Part shown: positions 13,114-52,280 of the stretch, piece by piece
How the letters are laid out: each line of letters starts with the position of its first letter
How positions within the stretch are numbered: the first letter of the stretch is position 1
NCBI GenBank assembly: GCA_036674765.1
Contig: JARVKI010000928.1
Location: forward strand, 186,001-250,000
Source: Seiridium cupressi
Lineage: Eukaryota > Ascomycota > Sordariomycetes > Amphisphaeriales > Sporocadaceae
Length of the DNA stretch: 64,000 bases
Direction of reading: 5' to 3'
The notes under the pieces: model-generated
The model's database searches: none
What the model saw: the letters and a program-made list of their open reading frames with translations, nothing else
Told to the model about the DNA's origin: nothing
Made by a program: the position numbers and the translations under genes

Positions 13114-13986
13114 CTAATTATCAAAGACGCCACGCCCTCCGTAGCTGTTCCCAATGTGGACTGCAGATGTGCCTTTCGCCATGATGGAGTCTGCCCCGTT
13201 GTTTGTTTGATCAGGTGGACCCAAGCTACAGCTTAATGCTGCCTCGGTCCATTCATTTCCAACCCGCACTCTCGCGCTCTCTTCACCTTGAACGTTCTTC
13301 GCATAATTCTTGCCTCCGTAGATCTCCAATCTCTTCGTGACAACCTCGCTCATAACACTATCCGAATCTGCGGCGGCATTTTGCAACGTGGTCAGGCTCG
13401 GCTCGTCGTCAACCTCCTCGATCTCTATTTCTACCAACGTGCGACGAGCACTTTCCTTCATGGGAAATAAACTTTCCAGCGCACTTATGAACTCGGTGAT
13501 CTCATTTATCATTTTCCTAGAGTTCTTCTCATCATACAATGCCCACGCGGCCTTTTGAAGAAGGCTAGTTCCTTTTTGTCTTCGACTGGCAACTGCCCTG
13601 AGATGGCTGTGCAGCCTTTGGGGGACTGGCTGCATGTTCTCAACTTGGAGGTGTTCGAGGTCCTCTTGCTTCGTACGCACCATGTACCGCTTCGACGCGG
13701 TCTGCAGGTCTTCGGAAAGATCGCCAATCCCCACCAAGATGCTTTTAGCTTGTTCAACACATCCATCTTCTGGCTCATCAGTGGCAAATCGAGGATCGTC
13801 GTTAATAGCAACGGCCTGACGCCATCGGCTTAAACGGGTCCGGGCAACGTCGACCTTGAGCTGACATCGTTCGTAATCTCGAGCGAAATGGCGGCCTAAT
13901 TGAATGTACTCGAAACAGTCAACGCAATTGTTAAAAAGGGCTGCCACGCTTGAAGCGCCGGCTACCGTACCGAATATCTCAGCCAT
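13114..13986 (-). CDS. het-s: HET-s/HET-S-type HeLo protein with C-terminal prion-forming domain
   Basis: A single-exon gene of 290 aa from the ATG at 13986; the Podospora HET-s protein is 289 aa. The N-terminal HeLo domain (about residues 1-225) has the family hallmarks FNNCVDCFEY, LGRHFARDYERCQL and SRWRQAVAINDDPRF. In HET-S this alpha-helical domain inserts into membranes and kills the cell when activated. The C-terminus carries two 21-residue pseudo-repeats, about residues 227-247 (ARVRVGNEW) and 263-283 (AVHIGNSY), at the positions of R1 and R2 in HET-s. These stack into the beta-solenoid amyloid. Residue 33 is His; from memory His33 is associated with the active HET-S type and Pro33 with the prion HET-s type. 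No frame break is visible. It lies downstream of a broken NLR on the same strand. Single-exon structure and full length argue for function. Confidence 0.93.
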   Translation of the reverse strand: MAEIFGTVAGASSVAALFNNCVDCFEYIQLGRHFARDYERCQLKVDVARTRLSRWRQAVAINDDPRFATDEPEDGCVEQAKSILVGIGDLSEDLQTASKRYMVRTKQEDLEHLQVENMQPVPQRLHSHLRAVASRRQKGTSLLQKAAWALYDEKNSRKMINEITEFISALESLFPMKESARRTLVEIEIEEVDDEPSLTTLQNAAADSDSVMSEVVTKRLEIYGGKNYAKNVQGEESARVRVGNEWTEAALSCSLGPPDQTNNGADSIMAKGTSAVHIGNSYGGRGVFDN

Positions 13987-14791
13987 GTTGGTATCTTGAG
14001 TTGACTTATTAAGGTCTTTCCTTCGCAAGATGAGGGGGTGGTGCGGCTGAAATGAAAAGACCTTTTAGTGGTCGCTTCGAGCCTGCTTCATCTTGGGGGC
14101 TGATTAATAGCCCCGCTCAGCGGCGACAACCCAAGGCCTGCTTCACCTTATGAGCGAACTATAACGCAATGATGGGAAACGACGAAGATACGAAAGCCTC
14201 ACTGAACCCTGCGGGTTGAAGATCTCCGGTCGATGTTCATAGTAGAATTGACCGAGGAAGGAAATGTAATGCTTTAGTCCAAATGCAGAGCCTCGCAATG
14301 TATAGAGCGGCGTTCCGAAGGTGCGAGATAACAAAGTGGCTCTAGCCTTTGATAGACTCGTAGCTACGCTTAATGACCAGAATACAGCATGACCCTCATC
14401 TACTATACCTCAAATTAAAGGTCGATGTCGTGATCATATCTAAATAATGTTTTTGGTGACAGATAGAGGTCCTTGAAGATGCTATCTCTTGAGCGCCACG
14501 CCTGCTCATGCTGATCGTCTAACAGCAGTCATAGGACCTCCTCTACGCCAGCCGTCTTCATTCTAACATCGGAAAAAGTTACATGAAGAAAGAATGAGAG
14601 CTTGTTAGGTAATTTCAGTAACTGCTGACCGATCAATACGTAACGTGCCGTTCATTTATATGGAACCATCTGGAAAAGTCACGAACGTCCCTCTAGGCCT
14701 TGGAAAAAGTATAAAATTACAACCGCCCCTAGGACCCTCCAAGGCAAAGAGAAAAGGAAAAAAATAAATAAAGTGCTAAGGGGTTTTCTTA
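13987..14791. other. intergenic between HET-s-like gene and NLR
   Basis: About 800 bp upstream of the HET-s-like gene and downstream of the receptor gene, both on the minus strand. It should contain the effector's promoter. The only structure that I notice is an A-rich tract at 14751-14771 just past the receptor stop codon. Confidence 0.4.
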
Positions 14792-17249
14792 TTATATTTC
14801 GGCGCCGCCGTCTAAAAGCAGCTTTACGACGGCGTTGTGGCCCTTACCTGAAGCGCATATTAAGGCCGTCGAGCCATCATTATGGGCAGCGTCGACCTTG
14901 GCACCGCCGTCTAAAAGCAGCTTTACGACGGTGTTATAACCCCTAATTGAAGCGCATATCAAGGCCGTCGAGCCATTTTTATTAATAACGTCGACTTTGG
15001 CAGCGCCGTCTAAAAGCAGCTGCACAACAACTTCGTTCCCATCATTCGCAGCATTCAGAAGAGGAGTCCGACCATATCGATCCCTCGTCTCTAAATGGCT
15101 AGATTTAGAGTCCTGTCGAGCACCGTTTTGAAGTAAGAGCGTTACAATATCATTATGGCCGTGATGGGTTGCCCATGATAAAGGCGGCAGGCCATTCTCG
15201 TCTCTGGCATCAACCTTCGCGCCTCTTTTGAGTAGGTGTTGGACAACGCTTTGATGTCCGTTTGCTGCAGAATACCATAATGGTGATCTGCCGAGCTTGT
15301 CTTTCCGGTTTACAATGGTAGGAGATAATGATGGTAGTTTGTCTCTTAAGATCACCTCGTACTCTGGCACTCGATCTAGGAGCGACCGGACTATCGAGTA
15401 ATACCCCTTCTCACTAGCCCATGATAAAGCGGTTCGCTGGTTAGAAGTGCCTGCCGCATTGAGACTCTTTTTGCTCCTTTTGCTCTTTTGGAGGATAAGA
15501 TTGACCAAGTTGTCCAAACCAAAGTAGGACGCGATCAGTAAGGAAGTGGGGAGTTCATGGGGAAATTCTGGTTCTCGCATTCGCTTTTCCCCATACACTT
15601 TCAGCCAACGTGAGCAAGCGCCGGAATCTGTGTCGCAAAGCTGCAAGGCCAAACGCTCCAGGTCTCTGTCATGTGTGTTAGGCACGTGACGGTAATGGTC
15701 TGCCCAGCTGCATGCAGCATATTCTAGGAAGACGAAACTGCGCTGGTCTTCCGATTCCCGAGAGCTTTTCGCCCCAACCGGTTCTTCAGGATCAGCGAGA
15801 AGCAGGTATCTGATGCATATCTCTGAAAGCAAACGGTGACTCCTTTAGGTCCAGGGAGTGTTGCCATTTTAAGGAGGGAGAGCGAACTTTGGATGGTTCA
15901 AGTGACGTTTGAATCAGGAATTCTCTCGCTGTCTGGTGGAGAAGAAATACTCGCGAATCTTGGATAACAACAAAAAGCCCACACGCTTCTCGGACCATAA
16001 CATGTAGCCGTTCCGGTGATACGAGATCTTGCTCGAGGTCTTTATGCCATTGGTGGCTCTTTTGGAAAGCAAGCACTGCAGCCATCTCTGTAAGATGCAG
16101 TGGTCTATCTGCTGCAACAACAGCGTGGAGGATCCTCTTGGCCTTGACGGGATGTTGGCTCTTGCGAAGGATATTGTCGTATGCCTCCTCTACTGTGCGG
16201 GGCAAGTTGCGGATGCTGGCAATCAAATCACTTTTGGAGAGGAAGACGGCTGTTTCGATAACAGGGAAGACTAGGTGGACCCATAGGTACGTTCGGTGAT
16301 GGACGACAGCAAACTCTGCCTGCAATATCTGTTTCTCATGTATGGAAAGTTGGAGCCTTTCGCATAATTCCTCTATACGTTGGTCGATAGTGATGGCGAT
16401 TTCCTGCGCAATCTTATCTATCTCTTCTTCGCTCTCTCCACTTAGGTGGATAGTAGGATGAGATGCTTCAAGATTCCGGAAATCTTGCCAAATGCGAAGG
16501 TATGGGCGGCTGGTTACGAGGAATTTCAGTGCGGATATTCCCTTGCCTTTGCTGTAATGCTGCGTCAAAGCCTTAGCAAGACGCGTCTGGTCCACGCATT
16601 CGTCTAGGGCATCTAGAATGCAGATGATGTCGCGGTGATTGTGGTTTCTTGTCGCCCCGATGAGTATATCCCAGAGTTTCGGGAAAGATGCGAAAAGCTG
16701 GTCGCCTTCTTCTCTAAAGTCTTCGAGGATGTCGTCCGAGAGCAGAGCAGGCTACTGGGTAAAGAGCTGATGTAAGATACAGCAAACAGCGCCTTCCAAG
16801 ACTCTCTGATCCTCGAAGTCGTCCTTGAAGAAGAAATAGCATGTCGTTCTGGTAGGATTGGAAGGGAATAGGTCGTCTACCAGGTATCTTGCCAGCACGG
16901 ATTTGCCACAACCCGGGTCTGCAGAGACCCAAAGGAGTGCCGAGGTCTCTTTTCGCCAATTTTGGAAGAGACGATGGGCGGTGAACCATTCACAAGTGCT
17001 ATTTGCTCGCTTCGGGTTCCTATTCTTGCGGTTCTCGTACGGCGAGGTGAAGAGTCGTTGAAGAAATTCGGTGCGCACTTTCGCTTTGTCCGTTTCGGCG
17101 AGGTGAGAATCGGCAAGGTAGCGGTTCGAATCTGGGTAGTTATGAACGATCGAGTAACTGTTCCCAACCTGGACCCTCGCGTGGCCGCCGGGCCTGATAA
17201 CTCCAGCGGAGTTTACTGTTGGGCATGTCGTATCTTCATCGCCTGTCAT
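14792..17249 (-). pseudogene. R0-NACHT-ankyrin NLR receptor, broken by nonsense and frameshift
   Basis: Reads from the ATG at 17249. Residues about 13-34 form an R0-type amyloid motif (ARVQVGNSY) matching the HET-s repeats. A NACHT NTPase follows, with Walker A DPGCGKS near residue 115 and Walker B ILDALDE near residue 210, then winged-helix-like regions and about eight ankyrin repeats to the stop at 14792. In the NWD2/HET-S model, ligand-driven oligomerisation of such a receptor brings R0 motifs together and seeds the effector's amyloid. Two lesions are seen. A TAG at 16752-16754 (codon 166) lies in a frame that otherwise continues unbroken. A frame change at about 15833-15836 leads into the ankyrin part; its context fits loss of two bases. 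No intron explains either. Unlike NWD2, which has WD40 repeats, the sensor here is ankyrin. Confidence 0.88.
14805..15100 (-). repeat. 99-bp ankyrin-coding tandem repeats
   Basis: Units at 14805-14903 and 14904-15002 match at about 83 of 99 positions by eye. A third, more diverged unit begins at 15003. The 99-bp period equals one 33-residue ankyrin repeat. High nucleotide similarity of neighbouring units indicates recent expansion or gene conversion, as known for highly conserved repeat arrays of fungal NLR sensors. Most differences between the first two units are transitions. Confidence 0.85.
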
Positions 17250-17461
17250 CGTTGAGGTTGTTGCTGATCGCTATCCTGTTGTTGACGCGTTGTGGTGCGG
17301 GGAAGTCTCGACGACGGTGAGATTGAGATCAGCCTTGTGGTTTGGAGACCAATCGGATCTGCTGAGCCACCTTCCTACACCATCTACACACGCCAGCCGT
17401 GATCTCGCCTCACGGTATTCCTCCCAGTTCCTCTCGGCTGCCAATATTGATATCATATCGC
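17250..17461. promoter_or_regulatory. divergent intergenic region between NLR and HeLo pseudogene
   Basis: 212 bp separate the receptor ATG (17249, minus) from the ATG of the broken HET-s copy (17462, plus). Both genes presumably once used this stretch as a shared promoter. I see no specific element. Confidence 0.35.
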
Positions 17462-17640
17462 ATGGTGGAGATTTTCGGTAGTACCGCTGGCGGTAAGAGC
17501 GTGGCCGCTCTCTTCACTGGCTGCGAGGACTGCTTGGAAACCGCGTAACTAGGTCGCCACCTTGTTCATGACTACGAGCGCTGCCAGCTGAATGCCAATA
17601 TTGCTCAGACGTGGCTGAGAACAATGAGAACGTCACTTCA
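17462..17640 (+). pseudogene. truncated second HET-s/HeLo copy
   Basis: Translating from the ATG at 17462 gives MVEIFGSTAGG, then VAALFTGCEDCLE, an in-frame TAA at 17546-17548, then LGRHLVHDYERCQL in the same frame. This matches the first 57 or so residues of the intact HET-s-like protein at 13114-13986. The TAA falls exactly at residue 29, where the intact copy has Gln encoded by CAA, so one C-to-T change explains it. Similarity fades after about 17625 and no prion domain follows. The relic is divergent from the receptor gene. Confidence 0.85.
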
Positions 17641-18298
17641 TAGTTTATCCGTCAGCCTGGTGAGCTTATGTAACATTGCTGCCATAAACAACCCCGTGAG
17701 GCCATGTAAAGCCCGGCCGTCCGATTGATATAATACCATGATCGCTGCTGTGCCAGACGGAAGTGCAATACTGGTGTTTGAGATTGAACACTTATTTTTG
17801 CTGGCATAGTATTAATTTAGGCGGTACGCTTTATAGCATCGAAATATCGAATGAATGTCGTTAAAAACAGAGTTTGGCTCGGTCGAAAGATCAATTTAAG
17901 CTATGGATCGATCGTTCATGCTTGCCAGCTACCTCAGGTATGAATCATGGCGGACCATGTGGCCCGTTCACCAGATCCACATCATCATCTCCACATCAAG
18001 TATGACCCGTCATTCTGCGAACCGTCCCGGCCCCGACCCTAAGACAACCCCATACAACGCAAATGGCACTTTGCCATCAACTTGGAACAGAATCTGGTAT
18101 AGACCGGCGCGAGATGGTCGATTTCATCAGCGATAAGTTGAAGAGGATGTATCTGTTACCAGTATCACTCGGACCTTAGACAAGCGTAGAATGAGTCACA
18201 AGGTAATGCGTCGTGTGGTTTAACAACGGAAACCGGAGCTGCGGCATTTTTATTAGTATAGACTCAAGATGCTGGGTTGCCGATTATATTATTTGGTG
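17641..18298. other. intergenic between HeLo relic and transposase relic
   Basis: No gene is recognised. It may hold the decayed 5' half of the transposon whose DDE region begins at about 18299, but I could not find terminal inverted repeats. Confidence 0.3.
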
Positions 18299-18751
18299 TT
18301 CATTGACGAGTTTGGCTTTGATAGATTTTGCGTTTTTCGACGAAAAGGATGGGTTCTAAAGGGCGTTACTCCGGTATGGAAGGCCAGTTTCTAACGCGAT
18401 AGCAAACTATTAATGCTTGTAGCGTACACACAAACTGGCGTGAAGCCGTCCAGCTTCTTCTTCGGATCGGTGGATAAGGCTTTATTTGAAGACTTTATCG
18501 ATTAATTACTCCATTACTGCGGTAAATGGCCGGAACTTGAAACCGTACTTGTCATAGACAATGTTGGTTTTCACTATTCAGAAAGGGTCCAGCAGAAGTG
18601 TAAAGATGCAGGCGTGAAGTCGGACTTCATCGCACCATACACTCCACGCACTAATCCAATTCAAGAGTTCTTCAGACAGGTCAAGACATATATGAAGTTA
18701 CAGCGCAAAACCACAGTAGTCTCATTCAGAGGGGATTTGAGAGTTATGTGA
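18299..18751 (+). mobile_element. Tc1/mariner-like (DDE_3) transposase relic
   Basis: A continuous reading frame of 150 codons, interrupted by TAA at 18392-18394 and 18503-18505 and closed by TGA at 18749, encodes the catalytic core of a DDE_3 transposase. Marks are FIDEFGFD (first Asp), a GWVLKGVTPV strand, LVIDNVGFH (second Asp) and APYTPRTNPIQEFF. The second Asp and the expected third acidic position are 34 residues apart, as in DD34E Tc1 elements, but that position is Gln here. Stops and the lost acid make it non-functional. The second TAA sits where relatives carry Gln, consistent with CAA to TAA. Confidence 0.85.
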
Positions 18752-19038
18752 AATCGTGTGTCAAGGTTGTGGGCAGTCGACAGAGCAGTGCAGAGGGCCA
18801 TTTTCGGAACGCTGGGCTTTACGTTGAGCAACCTCCTGAAGAAACGATGTGATTTGGCATGGAAAGGCATGCTAGCTTCAATCTTTATGAATATTATCTA
18901 CCCATTTGGAGATCCAGCTTACGAACCTGGCAACAACGCCTTCCATGACTCCGTTCTAAATCAACATGTCTTTACCCGCTTTCTGGCGGGTGGAGAGCCG
19001 GTGGAGATCGTAACTCTCGCCCATTGTAACCTGACCTG
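18752..19038. other. short stretch between relics
   Basis: A 94-codon ORF at 18758-19042 (plus) ends in the neighbouring relic and has no recognisable motif. It may include the decayed 3' end of the transposase. Confidence 0.3.
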
Positions 19039-19926
19039 CTAGCTGAGAAGCCTCCTACCAATTGTGGTTGGTGACCTCGGCGCTAAGCCACGGCTGTAGT
19101 GTACTGGCGCCTTATCTTCTGGCAGTGGAAAGTCAAGCTGTAGTAGTTGGCTCTCGCCAGCAGAATCTGCAGAGGCGTCATCGCTATGCCCACGGCAGGA
19201 AATGCGAACAGTGACAGGTAATGGATCAGAGGCCTTACGCTTTCGCAGCCTACGCGCCTTTTCTTCGTCCTTACGTATGTAAATTACCTCACGAATTCCT
19301 TCAGGTACATCGGCATGTGTTTCCAGCTTGTGACCTTGCTCAGCACAATCGACAAGCCGGTCCATGATATCACGGTCAAGTTTATAGTGCTTCTCGTTAT
19401 TGCGCCAGCAAGAGAATCCTCGGTCCGTACATGCAGCGCTAGAGCACTCCATAAGCCGGTAGATGTCCTTCCATACAGCTGGCAAGCCAGATGCCTCTTG
19501 CTGAGCAGTGAGCTTGTTTAAAGCGGCAGTGTGTTTCTTTGTAACTCTACGCCCTATCTTGCCGTCCTTGTTTATTGCCTGGACCTCCTTAAATATAATC
19601 AAGACAGTGACTTTGAGATCGTTGCCTTGATTACCCCAGGATCTCAGCTTGCTTTCCATGATCGCCCAATCGATTGAAAGCTTATTGGATCGTGTGCGGA
19701 AAGGAGCAACGCCGTGTTTTGAGTTGAATACAATGATCAGCGTCTAATCGGGTTGGTATTGAGGTTCAGGTACTTTGCTTTCCACGAGCGTCGAGAGTTC
19801 GGATTCGAGGATCTCGTTCCAGTATGCACCTGGTGCAATTCCGACGTCTTCTATAGTGTCTTCTGTAAGCGTTGTAAGTCTTCCCTTACGTGCAACGCGG
19901 CACGAGAGGACGACTGAGGGCCAGAC
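19039..19926 (-). pseudogene. broken member of a repeated fungal gene family
   Basis: A minus-strand frame runs from about 19926 to the stop at 19039, interrupted by TAG at 19744-19746. The downstream part (ATG at 19659) encodes 206 aa. The upstream part encodes an AYWNEILESEL segment, and the residues around the TAG (QYQPD before, TLIIVFNSKHG after) read as one protein. A Cys cluster (MECSSAACTDRGFSCW) followed by KHYKLDRDIMDRL and a VPEGIRE motif recall, from memory, a family of uncharacterised proteins found in many copies in ascomycete genomes, often near transposons. A Lys/Arg-rich stretch follows. Function unknown. It lies next to the transposase relic and may have travelled with an element. 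Confidence 0.6.
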
Positions 19927-22260: not shown

Positions 22261-22706
22261 CTTTGCTGTTGTGTTAGTAAGAGATGGTGTCGAGGGTGGT
22301 CGTCGAAATTGTTCGGGTCTAGGTTGAAGGCAATTGACGGAGCGATGCCAAACACTGAATTGAAGTTTTCCCCGGTGAAATTTTGGTGGCCGTGGTTTAA
22401 CCGAGGCGGAAGTACCAACCCTACGAACTTTTGAGAATTGGCAGCCGTCTGCGGCCCCGCTGTGATTGGGCCAGGCGGTGGATTCTATCTTATCGCAACC
22501 CCCACTACGGATTATCTTATCGACCGAATACTAGCTCTCAGAAACTTTTTTTTTCGTCAAGCTCTGAAAGGTGCTGTCTGAAGATTTGCGGCGAACCCAA
22601 GTTATCCGGTATTTTCACCAATTGCCCCACCAATCGATCGCGACTCTTCAGTCCTACATCCTGTCCATTCGATATCACCTACCGGTCATCTTTACAAACA
22701 GAAAAA
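22261..22706. promoter_or_regulatory. divergent promoter shared by uL22 and fibrillarin
   Basis: 446 bp between the ATGs of two ribosome-production genes on opposite strands. Visible sites are an inverted CCAAT box (ATTGG at 22465-22469), an AACCCTA telobox-like block at about 22418-22424, and a T-rich tract at 22546-22554 close to the fibrillarin side. Telobox-like and pyrimidine-tract elements are known at ribosomal protein promoters in fungi. That they act here is inference. Confidence 0.6.
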
Positions 22707-24131
22707 ATGGGTTTCGAGCCTAGAGGAGGTCGTGGCGGAGGTTTCCGCGGCGGACGTGGTGGCGGCGATCGTGGTGGCCGCGGAGGAGGTTCCTTCAGAG
22801 GCCGCGGTGGTGCTGGTGGAGGCTTCCGCGGTGGTCGTGGTGGCGGCGACCGTGGTGGTCGTGGAGGACCTCGCGGTGGACGAGGAGCACCTCGAGGTGG
22901 TAGGGGAGGTCCCAGAGGAGGTGCTCGAGGAGGAGCCAAGGTCGTGGTCGTAAGTCCAAGGGACTACAGATGCTCGTATGCCAGTAACTTACCAAACTGA
23001 ATGCAGGAGCCTCACCGTCACGAAGGTGTCTTTGTCTCAAGAGGAAAGGAAGATCACGCAAGTCGCAAGTCTTTTGTCATGGAGGAAATCCACTAACCTT
23101 GTACTAGTTGCTCACTCGCAGCGTGGCCCCTGGCCTCGAGGTCAGTTGAACCATGCGCATTGTTGGCTTTTACATAGACAACTAACATCTTGCAAAGGTC
23201 TACGGAGAGAAGCGCATCACGGTCGAGAACTCCGAGAAGGGTGAGGATGGAGCTCCCGTCTCTACCAAGGTTGAGTACCGCGTGTGGAACCCTTTCCGAA
23301 GCAAGTTGGCCGCTGGTATCATTGGTGGTATCGAAAAGATTTGTAAGTACAGCATGCGCGAACTTCTTTTTCTCTATTTAGAGTATTTCTGTTTTGGTAC
23401 TTTGTGTCGGCACGATCGAAGTATCGAGCCAAGATCGTTTGGATTCGGTCCAACGAGAACGTCATTTCATCCACGATAAGAACAAAAAGCTAACATGACA
23501 TCTTTTCCCTCTTGTCAGACATGGGTCCAGGAAAGAAAGTAAGTTACTCCATTTTTGTCTTTCAGCTTTTGCTCTGCAACAGCCACGCTGACAACGGTAC
23601 TTCTCAGGTACTCTACCTTGGCGCCGCTTCTGGTACATCTGTGAGCCACGTCGCCGATTTAGTCGGCCCTACCGGCAACGTCTATGCCGTCGAATTCTCC
23701 CACCGATCTGGTCGTGATTTGGTCAACATGGCTCAAAACCGTACCAACGTTATCCCGATTGTCGAGGACGCCCGTCACCCTCTCCGATACAGAATGCTTG
23801 TGCCCATGGTTGACTGTATCTTCGCCGATGTGGCCCAACCCGACCAAGCCCGTATCGTCGCGCTCAATGCCCACATGTTCCTCAAGGTTGGTGGTGGTGT
23901 CGTCATCTCCATCAAGGCCAACTGTATCGACAGCACAGCGCCTGCCGAGGCTGTGTTTGCGCAAGAAGTCCAGAAGCTTAGGGCAGAGCGCATCAAGCCG
24001 CAAGAGCAGCTTACCCTAGAACCCTACGAGAGGTTAGTCCCTTTCTCGGTTGCGAAACCACGCTGTAACTCTACTAACCTCTATGCAGAGATCACTGTAT
24101 CGTTATCGGACAATATCAGGAGGCGAAATAG
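22707..24131 (+). CDS. NOP1: fibrillarin, rRNA 2'-O-methyltransferase
   Basis: Seven exons: 22707-22949, 23007-23057, 23108-23140, 23198-23342, 23519-23538, 23608-24032 and 24089-24131. Frame is kept throughout, for 319 aa. Residues 1-81 are an N-terminal Gly/Arg-rich (GAR) domain made of GGRGG and FRGGRGG repeats, the usual site of arginine methylation. The methyltransferase domain follows: [24 protein letters not shown], the SAM loop [38 protein letters not shown] and [12 protein letters not shown]. It ends [10 protein letters not shown]. In the nucleolus it methylates rRNA ribose as the catalytic part of box C/D snoRNPs. The intron at 23058-23107 has a GC donor. No other fibrillarin copy is in the window. 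Confidence 0.97.
23058..23107 (+). other. GC-AG intron in fibrillarin gene
   Basis: The only donor that joins GKEDH to LLTRS in frame is GCAAGT at 23058. The branch site is CTAAC and the acceptor CTAG at 23104-23107. The nearby GT sites give the wrong phase. GCAAGT is the standard sequence of the minor class of GC donors. Confidence 0.8.
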
Positions 24132-24809
24132 ATTTCAACTCAACGAGGAAGATTGGAACAATGACGCGCTGTTTAAGTCTCTAATGTGTGAATACTCCAT
24201 AAGGGTTTTGTTGGTGGCGCCTATATTCTCAGGCATTGGCGAAAATGGCGTTGGGGAAACAGGTCATGCTTTTGCTAAGTTTTTATGCATTTTCTCATCG
24301 GCAAGGCGTAGAAAAATAAGGCTGATACCACCTACCCACCCTGGTACTTACATATCGTGAATGCCCTCATGGATCCGCGTAATCATCACCCGAGTTCAGA
24401 ACATAGCAGTGGAGATTTGGCGATTATCCAGTACCCAACTGAAGCGACACTTACATGACTTGTTACCTGCCGCACTTGTCATACGCTTATCGATTCGCAA
24501 GAAAGCCGTTGCATTTTAGTTTCCTGTAAATTGGAAGGGGCAAGCAATAACTCTACTGTCTTGGCAGTATGTGGCGTTCTGAAGGAACAGTTGATGTGGT
24601 TATGAGAAATGAGAAATGATTATGTGAGCCATGAGGGCAAACAAACATCAAGGGGTCGATAATGCTACTTGAAACCAGGTGGGCCAGAAGATCATGAGAT
24701 TTTGAGACTTCTACTTGATGACGCCCCGTACGTTCTCAATGTCTTTCTGTGGTCTTTTCAGCTACTTCCCTTTGCCTAAAAACGGAGAACATAGAAACAC
24801 TACGTCATG
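24132..24809. other. 3' flank, no gene recognised
   Basis: A/T-rich sequence downstream of fibrillarin. The read-through ORF to 24360 is intronic and UTR sequence. Nothing else is seen. Confidence 0.4.
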
Positions 24810-49938: not shown

Positions 49939-52280
49939 ATGGCCGACGTGTCCGAATATACGGCCCTCGAGGTGTCAGAACCAGCGAATACCGAGAAGTC
50001 TTCGGCTGCATCTGCTGCCGCTGCGGAAACAACGAATAAATTTCAACATGCCATTTCAGCATGGCGGAGTAAGTGCGCATGTCGATGGGAAGGGCTGGTT
50101 GTAACACGATCTGATGAACTGCAGACATCGATTTGACCACATTGGTTTCGACTCTAGACAACACAGCATCGGACATTGTCGCATACCAACGAGATTCGAC
50201 GGTCCAGAGGAAAGATCTCGCACAGAAGACAAAGGACTTTAGAAAACTAGACGATGCGACTAAGTTGACAGAGATCAAGGGCCTACTAAAGGGTGTGTGG
50301 TTTGGAAATTCAACATCTGCACTTGATGTCGAGCTAAGCTGACTTGCCGGTGTAACAGCCTACCAAACCTTCATCGATCTCCTGACAAACCACTCGAAAT
50401 CGACCAATTCAGCCTTTCTCCAAGTCTACTCAGCTCTATCCGACGCGCCGGATCCGTACCCCTTACTCGAAGCTTCGGTAGATTCTATGCTGGTCTCAGA
50501 AGATACCCTGCCAAAGCTCACGGAAGAGAATCAGCACTTGCAGAAGAGTATCTCAAAACTCACTTCGCAGCTAGAGGAGACTGAGTCGAAGCTACAGTCC
50601 GAGAGTGCGACTCGCAAACAATTAGAGTCCAATTTGGAAGGCAAAGTGAAGGAGGTCGAGGCATCATGGAGCGCTGTACTGGAAGAGAAGAAGGACAACT
50701 GGGAAGCCAAGGAGAAAGCGCTGGAGGAGAAAGTCGAGAACCAAGAGAGGCTGATGACGGAGATCAAGGCAAGCTACGAGGTAAATCAACGTCTGAAGGG
50801 CTCGGAGGATAGCGAGTCGGAAGGACAGGGAGGCCACGTCACATCGGCGGAATTAGAAATGGTCCATTCAGACCTGGAGCGGACCAGCGCCAGACTTGCA
50901 GAGGTTGAGGCCCGCAATGAGCAGCTGCGGTTAGACCTGGCGCAGTCCAAATCACAAGTCTCAACTCAAGCCCCGGCGCTCGAGGACGACCCTAGCTACA
51001 TGCGAATGCGGTCCGAAAATTCGTCCTTGATTCGAAAGCTCGACTCTGCAAGACTAGAGAAAGAAGGGTTCAAGCGAGACATTGACACGAAACTCAGAGG
51101 TCTTGAGAGAGAAGTCGGCCTGCTCAAGGAGGACCGAGACAATCTGAAGGCCAAAGTACAGAAATGGCAAGATTATGACGACGTGAAGCAGGAGCTGGAA
51201 GTCTTAAAGAGCATCGAGTTTGCCACAGGCGACGATGACGATGTTTTGGTGACCGACGCTGATTCCAATGGTGCGGCTGCCAAGGGTAAAGGGGACACTC
51301 TTGAACAGCTGTTATTGGCACGAAACAAGAAGCTTAGTGATGAACTGACAATCTTGCGTGTTTCGCATCAAGATCTTCAGAGCAGGCTGGAAAACTTGCA
51401 AGAGGACATGTCACGAACAAATGCCGACCTCGAGAGGGCACAAAACCTCAACGCCCAGCTCGAAAATGATCTGGCCAATCTCCAAGCAGAGGGTCAAAAT
51501 GCTTTTCCGTCAGGGGCATCTGTAGCTGGTACATATGCCCGCTACGCACCGTCCGTAGCGCCGGGTAGGCGAGGAGGCCGAACATCGCCAACTTCATCCA
51601 TTATCTCAGGTTTCAACCCTCGAGATGGGGGTGGTGAAGTTTATGGAGGCGGGTCCGGGATGTTACCAATGATTACGGCGCAACGAGATCGTTTCAAGAA
51701 GAGGATCACACAGCTTGAGAACGAATTGTCCGACTCTCATCGTTCGATATCACAGCTGCGACAAGAGACAGCAGCACTGCAAAAAGACAATCTGCAACTC
51801 TACGAGAAGACACGATACGTATCCACGTACAACCGAGGTGCACCATCAGCATCTTCGTCTTCAGCATATTCTTCCAACCCTAACCCGTCGACGGTTTCTA
51901 TCGGCGGCACAGGTAATCCGGGTATCGCCTTGGACAGATACCGAAAAGCGTACGAGTCCAATATTTCTCCTTTCGCGGCTTTCAGGGGCCGAGAATCGGC
52001 AAGAGCGTATAAGCGCATGAGCTTCCCCGAACGTGTGGTCTACTCGGTGACGCGAATGGTGCTCGCGTCAAGGACGAGTAGGAACTTGTTCGCGGCCTAC
52101 TGTGTAGCTTTGCACCTACTCGTATTTTTATCATTATATTGGATGGGCACTACGGACGCCGAGCAACACGCGAGTAACTTGAGCCAAGGGGTCGCGGGTG
52201 CTGCGGCGATGGCAGGAGCAGCTGGAAAGGGAAGTGGGTCGAGCCATGGAGATTGGAAGGAAGACTCTGGTGGCTTCTGA
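49939..52280 (+). CDS. COY1: CASP/Coy1-type golgin
   Basis: Three exons: 49939-50068, 50125-50292 and 50359-52280 (introns of 56 and 66 nt, frame kept), for 739 aa. The start is the ATG giving MADVSEYTALEVSE. An N-terminal conserved block (AWRNIDLTTLVSTLDNTASD, RKDLAQKTKDFRKLDD, KAYQTFIDLLTN) is typical of CASP. About 450 residues of coiled coil with heptads follow, then a Gly/Ser-rich linker. The C-terminal conserved block is RYRKAYESNISPFAAFRGRE, FPERVVYSVTRM and a tail anchor VALHLLVFLSLYWMG. CASP/Coy1 is a Golgi membrane tether that helps retrograde traffic and retention of Golgi enzymes. Confidence 0.95.

Follow-up and report, generated by a model that had tools for sequence, protein, structure and literature searches.

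An R0-NACHT-ankyrin counterpart of the HET-S/NWD2 pair, with a broken receptor gene, in Seiridium cupressi

HET-S/NWD2-type pairs and the Seiridium cupressi locus

In Podospora, the R0 motif of the NOD-like receptor (NLR) NWD2 induces an amyloid fold that converts the R1 and R2 repeats of HET-S, a step with experimental support (PMC4344463), and this conversion lets the N-terminal helix of the HeLo domain enter the membrane (PMC3531502, PMC4344463). The motif class, HRAM1, has the consensus N1, G10, R13, G17, and N18 with hydrophobic residues at positions 3, 6, 14, and 16, and amyloid motifs have been treated as portable units that occur with various repeat types (PMC3321046). An NLR adjoins 98 of 155 HRAM effectors (PMC4518210), and ankyrin repeats were noted in NWD2 homologues of certain other species in 2015 (PMC4344463). 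HET-eN of Nectria haematococca, which goes with SesA/SesB, is also a NACHT-ankyrin NLR with an amyloid motif beside its effectors (PMC3321046), but it uses the sigma motif and other effector domains. Here we describe a locus of the cypress-canker fungus Seiridium cupressi (contig JARVKI010000928.1), analyzed within a window of 64,000 nucleotides (contig positions 186,001 to 250,000; coordinates below count from its first base), in which an open HET-S homologue lies beside a broken NLR gene with an N-terminal R0 motif, a NACHT-type domain, and ankyrin repeats (R0-NACHT-ANK). We consider it probable, at roughly 85%, that the locus holds a canonical pair of the HET-s class (HRAM1 type) and of the R0-NACHT-ANK kind, seen in S. 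cupressi after pseudogenization of the receptor.

The HET-S homologue (13114-13986, minus strand, as are all parts of the pair) is a 290-residue open frame without intron or internal stop. Pfam places the HeLo domain of HET-S (PF14479, 170.1 bits) at residues 6-201 (13384-13971) and HET-s_218-289 (PF11558, 83.6 bits) at residues 222-283; within the latter, alignment and profile locate repeat R1 at residues 227-247 (13246-13308) and repeat R2 at residues 263-283 (13138-13200). The protein has the effector architecture of an HRAM pair, a HeLo domain followed by two C-terminal HET-s repeats, and each repeat agrees by eye with eight of the nine HRAM1 consensus positions (R1 lacks G10 and R2 lacks R13). 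An earlier reading made from the sequence only, without database searches, had proposed an intact HET-S homologue with both prion repeats, and the domain matches bear this out. We found 324 HET-S relatives and used the best 120 for counts; both Pfam domains were seen by eye in 118 of these, and the closest one listed is a Seiridium unicorne protein (94%). Sequence matches in the PDB were to chains of the HET-s/HET-S N-terminal domain (best E 3e-70) and to the HET-s amyloid (E 2e-13). An AlphaFold2 model of the effector (43 sequences, mean pLDDT 76) matched HET-S 2wvo with a TMt of 0.92, and it matched the HET-s solenoid 2rnm with a TMt of 0.64 and a weaker E of 0.03. Residue 33 is histidine, which is of the HET-S type and is shared with Podospora HET-S, and not the proline that marks het-s. 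The 45.4-Mb genome of S. cupressi contains one HET-s_218-289 domain and 15 places that match HeLo.

The NLR gene (14792-17249, start at 17249) lies 805 bases upstream of HET-S on the same strand and consists of three open pieces in two frames, so that it is a pseudogene in the assembly. R0 occupies residues 13-33 (17151-17213). The first half of a NACHT-type NPHP3_N domain (16755-16997; Pfam 86 bits, profile positions 2-82 of 164) is followed by an in-frame stop within this domain (16752-16754), at which the ORF (open reading frame) ends and directly after which the same frame continues into the second half (16506-16736; 40.9 bits, positions 88-164 of 164). A GPIID_WHD winged-helix domain (15897-16145; 30.4 bits) comes next, then a frameshift by one whose bounds are approximate (15838-15846; the pieces 15792-16751 and 14792-15844 are in different frames), and finally ankyrin repeats, which begin at residue 185 in the third piece (14795-15292; Ank_2 179.8 bits in five stretches, Ank 128.6 bits). 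The gene thus encodes a NACHT NLR with a single motif copy at its extreme N-terminus, beside a HeLo plus R1/R2 effector, just as in the Podospora HET-S/NWD2 pair. It differs from that pair in having ankyrin instead of WD repeats, in being broken, and in sharing the strand of its effector, whereas the two Podospora genes are divergent.

The R0 motif was scored with a profile built from 118 R1 and 118 R2 motifs of HET-S relatives, the window being excluded; a full 21-residue R1 was missing in two of the 120 relatives and a full R2 in two, and these were omitted. Over the first 60 residues of the NLR the combined profile gave 24.7 bits, compared with 13.4 bits for the best shuffle (15,384 scored of 20,000 made), and a profile from R1 alone gave 21.7 bits on the N-terminus, a score that no shuffle equaled. 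In a six-frame scan of the 1712 ORFs of at least 25 residues in the window, the HET-S ORF had an E of 1.3e-20 and the NLR ORF an E of 1.2e-5, and the next ORF reached 0.75. R0 also fits nine of the nine HRAM1 consensus positions by eye, if A is taken as hydrophobic at position 3. As judged from its sequence, the R0 motif is beyond chance, and the sequence-only claim of an adjoining ankyrin NLR with R0 in its first 35 residues has held. That reading had also called for a search with R0/HET-s profiles, in which both genes match the R1/R2 profile, and for a search for the pair in related genomes.

The pair and its receptor lineage in relatives

The search recovered 2921 NLR relatives (the best 7992 candidates were scored), of which the best 120 were used for counts and for a tree. 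By eye, ankyrin families are present in 113 of these 120 and WD40 in none. An R0-like stretch scored at least 8 bits within the first 120 residues of 44, and three weaker ones counted by eye bring the R0 total to 47, 45 of which have ankyrin families. Linkage was defined as an NLR and a HET-S relative on contigs of equal listed size, with P0234 excluded (none listed). Among the listed rows, a HET-S relative is linked to 8 of the 47 R0 NLRs versus 0 of 72 non-R0 NLRs. Four of the eight linked pairs are on contigs of 14, 31, 41, and 73 kb and the others on contigs of 0.5-3.3 Mb, and the pair of Xylaria longipes has consecutive gene numbers (CHU98_g6258 and CHU98_g6259). Adjacency restricted to the sequenced strain is contradicted by this linkage in relatives and by the consecutive X. 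longipes genes. HET-S and the R0 NLR are listed on contigs of differing size for several species of Xylaria, which may reflect several copies or lost linkage. The R0-NACHT-ANK NLRs of X. longipes, Nemania serpens, and S. unicorne share domain order, motif class, and a contig common with HET-S with the S. cupressi gene, but these listed receptors are uninterrupted. Judged by domains and motifs, pairs of the R0-NACHT-ANK kind occur in Seiridium, Xylaria, Nemania, and relatives.

A tree of the NACHT core of all 120 NLRs, from which R0 and ankyrin were left out (quick method, midpoint root, no NWD2 orthologue included), contained a well-supported branch (99% SH-aLRT) of 50 rows, 47 with R0 and three without, versus 70 rows without R0. 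Presence of R0 changed four times on this tree, compared with about 37 times when labels were shuffled, and the R0-NACHT-ANK NLRs thus look like one lineage. Their nearest non-R0 neighbors are mostly ankyrin NLRs as well; together with the lack of WD repeats among the 120, this weakens the case for a sensor exchanged on NWD2. The addition of R0 to an ankyrin NLR would explain the data no less well than a change of sensor on NWD2. A protein search with residues 1-70 of one relative (P0127) returned 16 candidates and 11 matches, all of them ankyrin types already listed, and was uninformative on WD types. The sequence-only reading had made sensor exchange its notable point; the direction of such an exchange is unsupported here, and ankyrin-bearing receptors of the HET-S/NWD2 type are already known, as the NWD2 homologues mentioned above illustrate. 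R0-NACHT-ANK is apparently a branch of HET-s amyloid signaling across many related fungi and not a one-off swap, and its receptors provide material for asking what the sensor recognizes. The interest that remains at the S. cupressi locus is receptor loss with an unchanged prion domain.

Loss of the receptor and rival explanations

The three NLR pieces align in order with uninterrupted proteins of S. unicorne (P0121, 1027 residues) and Seiridium cardinale (P0123, 847 residues), which indicates that intact copies are present in sister species. Across the frameshift junction, the pieces 15792-16751 and 14792-15844 are contiguous in P0121 and P0123 and also in P0122, one of two gene models from S. 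cupressi. The other, SCUP234_07289 (P0124), is the model of the sequenced strain, and its aligned parts have 100%, 100%, and 99.3% identity with the three pieces. Both S. cupressi models omit the stop-bearing stretch, leaving from different donors and resuming at the same residue, and the frameshift stretch is omitted by P0124 and read through by P0122. From the structure of these two models, and not from DNA, we infer that the stop is common to two S. cupressi strains and that the frameshift is confined to the sequenced one. A second NLR copy was sought and rejected: the locus DNA is present once, and in a search with P0121 (45 of 136 candidates scored) the best-scoring match in the rest of the genome had 39% identity (344 bits), with shorter stretches at no more than 51%. 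The receptor arm in S. cupressi is most likely dead, and in the sequenced strain the locus is, by its coding sequence, a former pair of the HET-S/NWD2 type. The sequence-only reading had allowed for a functional or a formerly functional pair. The pairing itself stands on domains, motif class, adjacency, and relatives, and of the two options the latter is favored, since the receptor frame holds both a stop and a frameshift.

In an intact pair, by analogy with Podospora NWD2/HET-S, the ankyrin repeats would serve as the sensor and bind a ligand, the NACHT domains would oligomerize upon binding, and the amyloid fold of R0 would template R1/R2, with the HeLo helix then passing into the membrane. 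In S. cupressi, this receptor arm would have been lost while the effector stays open. Amyloid templating, cell death, and receptor inactivity at this locus are what we infer from that analogy and from the broken frame.

Several points weigh against the R0 assignment or against the reading as a former pair with a dead receptor. An R2-only profile gave 13.2 bits on the NLR N-terminus, a weak margin with two shuffles equaling it, and Pfam's own model scores R0 at 15.3 bits, below its cut-off of 32.2. Equal contig size signifies linkage and is not proof of adjacency, save in X. longipes and very nearly on the contigs of 14 to 41 kb, and 39 of the 47 R0 NLRs are without a linked HET-S row among the matches listed; these 39 include the two S. 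cupressi rows and that of S. cardinale, whose HET-S has no separate listing. That another S. cupressi strain shares the stop is read from gene models, and splicing or recoding can bypass a stop codon. Finally, the R0 scan described below takes in 30 of the 78 places in the genome with NPHP3_N; among the other 48, many share a gene.

The weak R2-only margin and the sub-threshold Pfam match are what speaks for two unrelated neighbors, one with an R0-like stretch by chance. This is almost certainly not the case: the combined profile stands far above the shuffles, the motif is kept in 47 relatives, and linkage is seen in eight, and on the profile, the shuffles, and this conservation a chance R0 is rejected.

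The gene models bear on a second alternative, a pair that is still functional because splicing or recoding of the RNA takes care of both the stop and the frameshift. Both S. cupressi models do skip the stop stretch, and R0, the NACHT-type domain, and the ankyrin repeats are still recognizable. The different donors, however, delete 16 and 11 residues from the middle of NPHP3_N that P0121 and P0123 keep, so that a real intron spanning the stop is improbable, and the model of the sequenced strain also loses the whole frameshift stretch; we regard a working pair as very unlikely.

It is also conceivable that HET-S is retained because an NLR encoded elsewhere in the genome activates it in trans. 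HET-S still has an open frame, other fungi are suspected of having nonadjacent amyloid partners (PMC9815663), and the 48 places beyond the scan could house such a receptor. The scan covered 1.5 kb on either side of the 30 best of the 78 NPHP3_N places and of all eight NB-ARC places, using an R0 profile of 13 relatives from which the R0 of the window was excluded. Within these bounds no further R0 was found near the 37 other NLR domains (this locus 42.9 bits, next 6.1), and the R1/R2 profile over the same places likewise found only this locus (21.0 bits, next 7.8). We regard activation in trans as quite unlikely. Two genome-wide searches had low power: a 28-residue R0 query matched only itself and missed even R1/R2 of HET-S, and a PF17108 search gave three sub-threshold matches, two of them at this locus, with signals also in 4 of 14 control genomes. 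The third PF17108 match, on contig C26, runs opposite to a longer reading frame that encodes a different protein. We return to the former pair with a dead receptor as the preferred reading.

Divergence of the effector and features around the pair

When the HET-S homologue of the window was compared with that of S. unicorne, 16 of 217 residues in the HeLo part and 0 of 73 in the prion domain differed (Fisher p 0.015). The chance of no change in the prion domain is 0.07 for nine changes and 0.01 for 16. The ratio of prion-domain to HeLo divergence was 0.6 to 2.1 in eight further comparisons, some with members in common and one involving the window itself. After polarization by outgroups, three of nine changes on the S. 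cupressi branch fell at sites at least 95% conserved in relatives (residues 12, 56, and 91), compared with 3 of 427 on 22 control branches from eleven pairs (p 1e-4); the eleven pairs were chosen by the author, two sequences occur in two pairs, and the test was devised after the differences had been seen. The S. unicorne branch had two of five changes at conserved sites, both mild replacements, and the NLR model of that species is uninterrupted. Hydropathy of the membrane helix, which is not decisive, was 1.37 in the window (10th from the bottom of 116), 1.48 in S. unicorne, and 1.59 at the median. Over the whole protein, four rare residues occur at conserved sites in the window, which the family range of 0-11 does not set apart. 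The contrast between the two domains and the branch count, together with residue 86 (below), hint post hoc at a relaxed constraint on HeLo and are no proof of lost toxicity.

Such signs could belong to a het-s-like haplotype, in which the receptor was lost, HeLo toxicity is waning, and the prion domain is kept, possibly acting as a prion on the intact HET-S that other strains carry and so causing vegetative incompatibility. Besides the 16 versus 0 differences and the excess of changes at near-invariant sites, the changed residue 12 lies in the N-terminal segment, which enters the membrane in Podospora (PMC3531502); all wild het-s strains have an nwd2 pseudogene (PMC4344463), and a pseudogenization route to such systems has been published (PMC10197012). 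Like the het-s haplotype of Podospora anserina, which underlies the [Het-s] prion, the S. cupressi locus combines a broken receptor with an effector whose frame is open and whose prion domain is conserved. It differs in having H33 where het-s has P33, and nwd2 was inactivated by a transposon scar there, compared with a stop and a frameshift here. The histidine at residue 33 is of the HET-S type, the tests are post hoc on one strain and small counts, S. unicorne also shows two of five changes beside an uninterrupted NLR model, the whole-protein count is unremarkable, and neutral decay of the effector accounts for the HeLo changes equally. We therefore consider a het-s-like haplotype unlikely. 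It is equally doubtful that the locus is a natural, independent counterpart of the Podospora haplotype, with HET-S turned into a non-toxic prion and a second [Het-s]-type origin from an ankyrin-receptor pair. As of 2012, the available text of PMC3531502 gives no evidence of het-s/het-S incompatibility beyond Podospora, and the accessible literature on HET-s with NACHT-ANK and on nwd2 pseudogenes, a scope that most subscription journals fall outside, contains no receptor-dead HET-S locus outside Podospora. The locus looks like a natural loss of the receptor, and it would make the pseudogenization model of [Het-s]-type incompatibility (PMC10197012) testable beyond Podospora.

A further residue of the effector is recorded in its own right. 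The substitution E86K abolishes HET-S toxicity in Podospora (PMC3531502); residue 86 (13729-13731, minus strand) is G in the window and in S. unicorne and is E, Q, or D in 118 of the 120 relatives.

Upstream of the NLR and divergent to it is a relic of another HeLo/HET-S gene, namely its 5' end (17462-17638, plus strand; HeLo 26.6 bits) with an in-frame stop. It is identical to the intact HET-S at 32 of 59 residues and was also recovered in the genome search for HeLo. A single NLR was probably flanked here by two HeLo genes in the past. On gene content, then, the sequence-only reading was right about the pair and overlooked the broken NLR frame and the HeLo relic. Near the locus is a fragment of a DDE_3 transposase-type endonuclease (18506-18748, plus strand), and the DNA at 17900-19050 has no second match in the genome.

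Elsewhere in the genome, one of the 15 HeLo places, on contig C2 at about 168970-170270, belongs to an all-in-one NLR that joins HeLo (150 bits) to a subsequent NPHP3_N domain (86 bits), whose frame as read contains one stop. The 78 NPHP3_N places compared with eight NB-ARC places, several with internal stops, point to a large NACHT-type NLR set in apparent decay. Farther along the window are a fibrillarin gene (23494-24357, plus strand, 235.7 bits) with a glycine/arginine-rich ORF just upstream (22401-23000) and a gene for a Golgi CASP-type protein (50343-52277, plus strand, CASP_C 317 bits).

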